Shown here: positions 52,599 through 53,300 of the stretch, piece by piece
How positions within the stretch are numbered: the stretch's first letter is position 1
Layout: each line of letters opens with the position of its first letter
Assembly (NCBI RefSeq): GCF_900456975.1
Contig: NZ_UGYM01000002.1
Location: forward strand, 5,208,001 to 5,272,000
Length of the DNA stretch: 64,000 bases
Reading direction: 5' to 3'
From: Shewanella baltica
Lineage (GTDB): Bacteria; Pseudomonadota; Gammaproteobacteria; Enterobacterales; Shewanellaceae
Translations under genes and position numbers: made by a program
Notes under the pieces: generated by a model
Told to the model about the DNA's origin: nothing
Database searches by the model: none
What the model saw: the letters and a program-made list of their open reading frames with translations, nothing else

Positions 52599-52675
52599 CG
52601 GTGATTAGCGCAGCCCGGTAGCGCATCTGGTTTGGGACCAGAGGGTCAGAGGTTCGAATCCTCTATCACCGACCA
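52599..52675 (+). tRNA. tRNA-Pro (TGG), copy 1
   Basis: A 77-nt cloverleaf, acceptor CGGTGAT/ATCACCG, anticodon stem-loop CTGGTTTGGGACCAG (anticodon TGG), T-loop GGTTCGAATCC, encoded CCA. Identical to copy 2. Confidence 0.97.
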
Positions 52676-52731
52676 AATTCTTCGCATAGCTAGCGAACTT
52701 AATGTAAGTTAAGTAAATAGTGAACAGTTTA

Positions 52732-52808
52732 CGGTGATTAGCGCAGCCCGGTAGCGCATCTGGTTTGGGACCAGAGGGTCAGAGGTTCGAATCCTCTATC
52801 ACCGACCA
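52732..52808 (+). tRNA. tRNA-Pro (TGG), copy 2
   Basis: Base-for-base the same as copy 1. Immediately followed by the 140-bp repeats that contain degraded copies of its 3' end. Confidence 0.97.
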
Positions 52809-53300
52809 AATAAGTAAAAAAGCCTCAGCATTCTTAATGAATTCACTGGGGCTTTTTTGCATCTACGGTTTGCTTGTCTTGATTGGCATTAGAAGCCTTA
52901 TTGCCAGAAAGCAGAGGTCGAATCCTCACTCTATCAAAGCATCGACCAAATAAATAAAAAAGCCTCAGCATTCTTAATGAATACACTGGGGCTTTTTTGC
53001 ATCTGCGGTTTGCTTGTCTTGATTGGCATTAGAAGCCTTATTGCCAGAAAGCAGAGGTCGAATCCTCACTCTTTCAGCGCATCGACCAAATAAGTAAAAA
53101 AGCCTCAGTATTCTAATGAATGCACTGGGGCTTTTTTGCATCTGCGGTTTGCTGTTTGTATCTTGGCATTAGAAGCCTTATTGCCAGAAAGCAGGGGGGG
53201 CGAATCCTCGCGCTTTCAACGTATCGACCAAATTCAACGCATCGAACAAATAAGCAGAAACACCTCAGCATTCTTAATCATTATGCAGGGGCTTTTTGGC
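52809..53300 (+). repeat. 140-bp tandem repeats with terminator hairpins and tRNA-Pro 3' remnants
   Basis: Three units and a partial fourth with a 140-bp period (CGACCAAA recurs at 52803, 52943, 53083 and, diverged, 53225). Each unit begins with an AAAAAAGCCTCAG ... CTGGGGCTTTTTT hairpin and ends in CAGAGGTCGAATCCTC plus ATCGACCA, a degraded copy of the tRNA-Pro T arm and acceptor end. The first two units are nearly identical, the later ones diverge. The first hairpin is probably the real terminator of the tRNA operon; the others are extra. The frames across the units look accidental. Confidence 0.85.

Follow-up and report, generated by a model that had tools for sequence, protein, structure and literature searches.

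The repeat array behind the two tRNA-Pro(UGG) genes of this Shewanella baltica locus is, in our view, probably though far from certainly a tandem amplification of a composite segment (spacer, old tRNA-Pro 3'-end-like sequence and terminator), and either replication slippage or unequal homologous exchange beside the duplicated tRNA gene would have both made and resized it. Judging from the loci compared, the array appears to be part of a pattern that recurs through the genus. A more surprising find than the array itself is a mirror-image element that resembles the 5' half of tRNA-Pro, here called type C, which may be a functional RNA.

Within the window (the whole stretch of 64,000 nucleotides that was analysed), ARAGORN and the Rfam tRNA model recognized only four tRNAs at the locus, in the order Arg, His, Pro and Pro (Table 1). 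Neither found in any array unit the cloverleaf and anticodon of a tRNA gene, and the remaining Rfam matches at the locus all stayed under the cut-offs of their families. The ORF at 53463-55382 lies on the minus strand and is convergent with the tRNA operon. Together with a further minus-strand ORF at 49505-52162 it flanks the operon, and both translations look GGDEF/EAL-like by eye.

Table 1. tRNA genes, tRNA-Pro 3'-end-like segments and terminators of the locus (positions in the window).
Feature	Position	Strand	Remarks
tRNA-Arg(CCG), first gene of the operon	52360..52436	+	ARAGORN, Rfam tRNA
tRNA-His(GTG)	52490..52565	+	ARAGORN, Rfam tRNA
tRNA-Pro(TGG) copy 1	52599..52675	+	ARAGORN; same as copy 2 over 80 nt
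tRNA-Pro(TGG) copy 2, adjoins the array at its 5' side	52732..52808	+	ARAGORN
Intrinsic terminator 3' of tRNA-Pro copy 2	52815..52859	+	inverted repeat arms, -19.6 kcal/mol, T6
Unit 1 tRNA-Pro 3'-end-like segment, CCAGA to ACCA	52904..52948	+	score 38 vs shuffle maximum 28
Unit 1 terminator	52955..52999	+	fold -19.7 kcal/mol, T6
Unit 2 tRNA-Pro 3'-end-like segment	53044..53088	+	score 34, equalled in 1/500 shuffles
Unit 2 terminator	53095..53138	+	fold -21.1 kcal/mol, T6
Unit 3 tRNA-Pro 3'-end-like segment, eroded	53184..53230	+	score 24, equalled in 26/500 shuffles
18-bp partial duplication around the CATCGACCAAAT end ("fourth" unit)	53215..53251	+	Tandem Repeats Finder period 18
Unit 3 terminator, degenerate	53255..53298	+	fold -11.1 kcal/mol, T5
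Last terminator-like hairpin, between array and ORF 53463-55382	53406..53441	+ (found on both strands)	

The tandem 140-bp repeats that a preliminary description had placed behind two identical tRNA-Pro(TGG) genes were recovered by Tandem Repeats Finder at 52803-53233, with a period of 140, 3.1 copies and 92% matches. Every unit carries a segment resembling the T arm and CGACCA end of a tRNA, and a hairpin with an A-run, a G+C stem and a T-run. When the segments were aligned locally with tRNA-Pro and the scores set beside those of 500 dinucleotide shuffles, none of the shuffles was as high as the 38 of unit 1; the likeness is far over chance in units 1 and 2 and marginal in unit 3, and the fourth fragment lies within chance (score 12, 202 of 500 shuffles as high). 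The degenerate tRNA-Pro 3' end that had been ascribed to each unit thus holds for the first two, is marginal in the third and fails in the fourth. The array segments differ from the tRNA gene by an insertion between the T arm and CGACCA and by a T missing from the T loop. A progressive decay from unit 1 to unit 4 had also been described, and unit 3 and its terminator are indeed more diverged, but units 1 and 2 are near-identical and the insertion is common to other species.

The terminator-like hairpin reported for each unit is present as an inverted repeat with a T-run, that of unit 3 being weak (-11.1 kcal/mol). Three copies have the stable hairpin followed at once by a T-run that characterizes an intrinsic terminator (-19.6 to -21.1 kcal/mol, T6), and base changes have left the stems paired in the terminator behind tRNA-Pro and in those of units 1 and 2. 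A simple terminator scan of the plus strand returned 53406-53441 as its sole entry; we think that it skips the array hairpins because its loop limit is 8, against G+C arms that are 16-17 nt apart.

The closest precedent is E. coli tyrT/tyrV (rtT), where tandem repeats likewise lie 3' of a tRNA gene and the tRNA 3' end forms part of each. Behind tyrV of E. coli K-12 there are three further copies of the final 20 nt of tRNA-Tyr, with 19/20 identity and a spacing of 178 bp, and behind tyrT the tRNA-Tyr 3' end recurs once. The array differs in being built on tRNA-Pro rather than tRNA-Tyr, in its 140-bp units, and in a 3' end that is longer by the insertion and more eroded; a terminator in each unit is a feature of the array, the E. 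coli repeats having been compared on tRNA 3' end and spacing. In rtT each repeat holds the last 19-20 nt of the neighboring tRNA almost unchanged; the array units, which carry the insertion and have lost the T-loop T, do not. The RF00391 (rtT/RttR) covariance model gave no match in the whole source genome at E up to 10, while it matched in four of 14 control genomes, E. coli among them, with one over the cut-off. The array is an rtT-like arrangement, neither a member nor a homologue of rtT, so that of the parallel drawn earlier the layout stands and homology does not.

Other known systems share single aspects with the locus. Giroux and Cedergren and co-workers reportedly described, in 1988 and 1989, tRNA-Pro/tRNA-His clusters with pseudo-tRNA sequences in Photobacterium phosphoreum and an argX-hisR-leuT-proM operon in gamma purple bacteria; these share the type of tRNA operon with the locus and are reported to have repeated tRNA-Pro genes and tRNA-like debris. 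The A-run, G+C-rich stem and T-run, occurring three times, also liken the array to serial intrinsic (Rho-independent) terminators, but in the array each repeat of the terminator comes together with a segment resembling a tRNA 3' end. The 3' external transcribed spacer of the glyW-cysT-leuZ tRNA operon, an sRNA sponge, is an RNA made from sequence 3' of the operon, and the array is likened to it by position. Titles and abstract openings in one open-access library contained no report of such repeats in Shewanella or Vibrio.

Our comparison covered 129 genomes of the genus, including the source genome, and took the best-matching tRNA-Pro locus from 116 of them, mostly argX-hisR-proM, a few of which end early at contig ends. 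Copies were searched outside recognized tRNAs with at most one error in TTCGAATCC and at most one substitution in a CGACC(A/G) end, and three matches were removed as spurious by eye. Conservation in related strains had been set as a test of the array, and the search revealed tRNA-Pro 3'-end-like copies at 38 of the 116 loci (105 copies, from zero to six per locus), a search that misses degenerate copies, as unit 3 of the array went uncounted and two copies were counted at this locus. Among the 105 are 26 full-length pseudo-tRNAs, and one copy (L112) lacks the insertion. No 3' copy was detected at the other 78 of 116 loci, a few of them cut by contig ends, which indicates that serial terminators are not needed. 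Of the 129 Shewanella genomes, 29 contain the exact pattern TTCGAATCCT-N9-30-CCGACCA, the match in G048 resembling a chance one, against three of 129 for the reversed control pattern. An order-wide search for the 3'-copy pattern matched 13 of 394 genomes, five Shewanella and eight others; one of the latter (G394) proved on inspection to be a real tRNA-Pro followed by a terminator, and the other seven were rejected as 3' copies, being judged unrelated from the matched strings alone. A contig pattern scan returned Shewanella sp. DT_112, Shewanella benthica KT99 and two records from unrelated bacteria.

Two further arrangements were seen in passing. At five loci (L133, L134, L135, L136 and L138) the Pro-Arg-His operon carries a 3' copy (e.g., TTCGAATCCTCACTCTTTATGAAAGAGAGTGGCCGACCA) after tRNA-Pro with no obvious T-run terminator by eye. 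At L021, L022 (G120, G115) and L199 (G351) the operon is lengthened by alternating tRNA-His and tRNA-Pro genes.

The insertion is not a private scar of the array; other Shewanella have it too, and the versions TCACTCTTTATGCAAAGCGGG at L016, CCCTCTTTATCAAAGCAGG at L029 and L068 and TCACTCTATCAAAGCAT in the array have a core in common. Unit 1 aligns better with copies at two of these loci (L029_1916, 26.0; L068_1588, 23.0) than with its own tRNA-Pro (16.5), and none of 500 shuffles reaches any of these scores. We infer that the segment goes back to a pseudo-tRNA-Pro lineage long present in the genus, rather than having been copied afresh from the adjoining gene. The lasting TTCGAATCC and CCGACCA letters could reflect selection or gene conversion. 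Descent of the whole array unit from a full-length tRNA-Pro was considered and dropped, because its first 50 nt hold nothing over chance: against seven references, tRNA-Pro and full-length pseudo-tRNAs among them, 239-481 of 500 shuffles scored as high.

Origin by unequal exchange or slippage, as had been suggested, is supported by the copy number in relatives and by the terminators. At this locus the closest match is G037, with a single unit against three in the array, and this unit joins a 5' part like that of unit 1 to a 3' part like that of unit 3, including the 18-bp extra copy. Such a hybrid is expected from unequal exchange within an array in either direction, and a direction of growth read from the decay gradient is thus too simple. 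The 50 nt after the last tRNA-Pro resemble those after the best unit of the same locus (mean score 0.79 over 37 loci; 0.67 when averaged over all own units and not the best) more than those after units of other loci (0.58). For 29 of 37 loci the best score within the locus is higher than the median of the best scores with the others, and for eight it is not; the stretches of 50 nt that follow the unit and the tRNA-Pro of G037 score only 0.46 with each other. Terminators thus tend to be more alike within a locus than between loci, an outcome expected of unequal recombination. We infer repeated local duplication and homogenization, with exceptions.

Type C denotes tRNA-Pro 5' halves that lie in the His-Pro or Pro-Pro spacer at several loci. 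The element runs in the order CGGTGATTAGCGCAG, D arm, hairpin H2, GCGGACCAGAGGG and hairpin H3, without a T loop and without the acceptor 3' strand, the two hairpins standing in for the anticodon, T and acceptor 3' strands. One to five tandem copies either open a tRNA-Pro operon or separate its tRNA-Pro from tRNA-His. A pattern search found it at 25 of 116 loci; both kinds of copy occur in 12 loci and at least one kind in 51. The best covariance-model matches led to a second operon, Pro-Arg-His, and in the loci of this operon that were viewed, tRNA-Pro is preceded by one or two type C copies, and these by a stretch that looks like a promoter by eye. In the source genome, type C is found at G000:C2:2887321-2887385 (L193; 49.6 bits), outside the 64-kb window, directly 5' of tRNA-Pro in a Pro-Arg(TCT)-His operon and after a stretch, TTGACG...TAAGAT, that looks promoter-like by eye. 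Covariance model R1 also matches real tRNA-Pro (about 55-58 bits), and for this reason its genome tallies are no count of type C. Outside Shewanella, type C was present in 10 of 18 genomes viewed (five of family f21, four of f11 and one of f12), a proportion that is no prevalence, the 18 having been chosen for high scores. The 96 type C positions, some of which are one place counted twice, reduce to 75 distinct sequences. At one f12 locus (L200, G139), tRNA-His and tRNA-Pro are separated by five near-identical type C copies in tandem; the spacers that precede most of these copies and tRNA-Pro are much alike.

In two alignments, A3 and A4, each of 14 hand-chosen type C sequences, 90.3% and 97.1% of cells pair, against 87.5% and 94.3% after shuffling (as high in one and in none of 500 shuffles) and 34.6-66.1% and 16.8-51.0% when slid, and related sequences can beat shuffles without any structure. 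The covariation score of A3 was equalled in nine of 500 shuffles and that of A4 in none. The counts of changed pairs were ordinary in A3 (three pairs changed on both sides, 320 of 500 shuffles; nine further pair types, 232 of 500); the corresponding figures for A4 were 19 and 246 of 500 shuffles. The H2 stem is kept over differing sequences (GCTCTT/AAGAGC, GCCCTT/AAGGGT, ATCCTGA/TTAGGAT), the first two sitting a few bases more 3' than the third. For H2 in 37 sequences, between 0 and 88 of 100 shuffles reached the observed value (median 7), with a combined Fisher p of 1.5e-4 over 13 clusters; a half-swap between the same number of clusters gave -4.01 kcal/mol for matched halves versus -3.33, a difference short of significance, since 192 of 2000 permutations did as well. 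The shuffle test of H3 is biased, since the search pattern demanded CCTC near GGACCAGAGG. When 33 type C sequences were aligned with plain MAFFT, RNAalifold returned only three D-stem pairs, we think because the hairpin arms were misaligned. In an Rfam search of five loci at E up to 0.1, only real tRNAs reached the cut-off and no match overlapped type C.

The 5' end of type C tracks the host tRNA-Pro, reading CGGTGAA where the tRNA has CGGTGAA, which either gene conversion or selection for complementarity would give. We advance, as a tentative proposal that we hold with less than even confidence, that in several families of one gammaproteobacterial order tRNA-Pro(UGG) is bracketed by its own half-copies, with the conserved, structured type C on the upstream side and, in many Shewanella, the units of 3' half and terminator on the downstream side, and that type C would represent an undescribed family of tRNA-derived RNA, which as a leader or a small RNA would control how tRNA-Pro is made or processed. 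Its CGGUGA(U/A) could, for instance, pair with the acceptor 3' strand in competition with the genuine 5' strand.

Some species have what we call type A copies (full-length INTERMEDIATES), in which a type-C-like 5' part is combined with a T arm, the insertion and CCGACCA; 26 are listed. Near position 1159 of L112 (G019) lies a pseudo-tRNA-Pro, absent from the ARAGORN output, whose 5' part is type-C-like while its tRNA-Pro 3' end is intact; a terminator-like hairpin follows it. Type A copies and L112 link the 3'-end-like copies with type C. Four full-length pseudo-tRNAs (L116_633, L071_746, L066_1091 and L084_757) have an extra palindrome like ACTCTTTATAAAAGAGAGT in the anticodon region; it resembles the insertion before CCGACCA and looks like one small hairpin sequence present at several sites.

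The preliminary description had also raised the possibility of discrete small RNAs, and one alternative is that the 3' units are processed into tRNA-like RNAs, with a T arm, an acceptor-like CCA end and a terminator of their own, that serve as sponges, decoys or regulators. The recurrence of the T-loop TTCGAATCC and CCGACCA in diverged copies at 38 of 116 loci favors it, as does the stem that some units (L029_1916, L016_1807, L107_688) can close almost to CCA, single folds proving little. Among 35 truncated and 14 full-length representative units, whole units folded slightly better than their shuffles, with a mean z of -0.61 (se 0.17) and -0.87 (se 0.27), respectively. Shuffling the upstream part only, however, cost the truncated units, which are of the array's kind, nothing (-0.10, against -0.63 in full-length units), and a strand-swap permutation of 5' and 3' strands left pairing no weaker (125, 186, 86 and 160 of 200 at least as strong in four versions). 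A conserved minihelix in the 3' units was dropped on these two null results. Moreover, T-stem pairing is gone in several units in which TTCGAATCC persists, and little RNA would be expected beyond a first terminator of such strength. We regard discrete small RNAs from the 3' units as unlikely, the proposal being unsupported by the fold tests.

A less improbable alternative, though one we still doubt, holds that the locus is neutral debris, i.e., functionless pseudo-tRNA copies and spare terminators that are alike only via recombination and gene conversion. The patchy distribution, the erosion of unit 3, the change in copy number between relatives and upstream elements whose CGGTGAA ends follow the host tRNA would all fit it, while the pairing retained in terminator stems through base changes and in the type C stems argues against it. 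tRNA 3' ends are classical sites of integration, and the units might accordingly be remnants of attachment sites left by integrative elements targeting the tRNA-Pro 3' end. We consider this very improbable, as the units are short and mostly have their own terminators, the insertion lies inside the would-be core, and no integrase was recognized by eye among the ORFs at 49000-57000.

Under tandem amplification, the reading we prefer, unequal exchange would be anchored in the tRNA halves and would leave a multi-terminator array, and the upstream type C elements would stem from the mirror image of this process, acting on the 5' half of tRNA-Pro. The useful output, if there is any, would be three strong terminators and one weak one in series on the way from the tRNA operon to the convergent gene, and serial termination appears to be the likeliest use of the array.

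To our knowledge, tRNA 3'-end repeats have so far been an isolated oddity of E. coli tyrT. The Shewanella loci offer an independent, genus-wide case with many states, through which the growth, the loss and the possible use of such repeats are open to comparison. Type C, whose stems pair while their sequence changes, offers a candidate, open to testing, for an RNA that has been overlooked and that belongs with a single tRNA.
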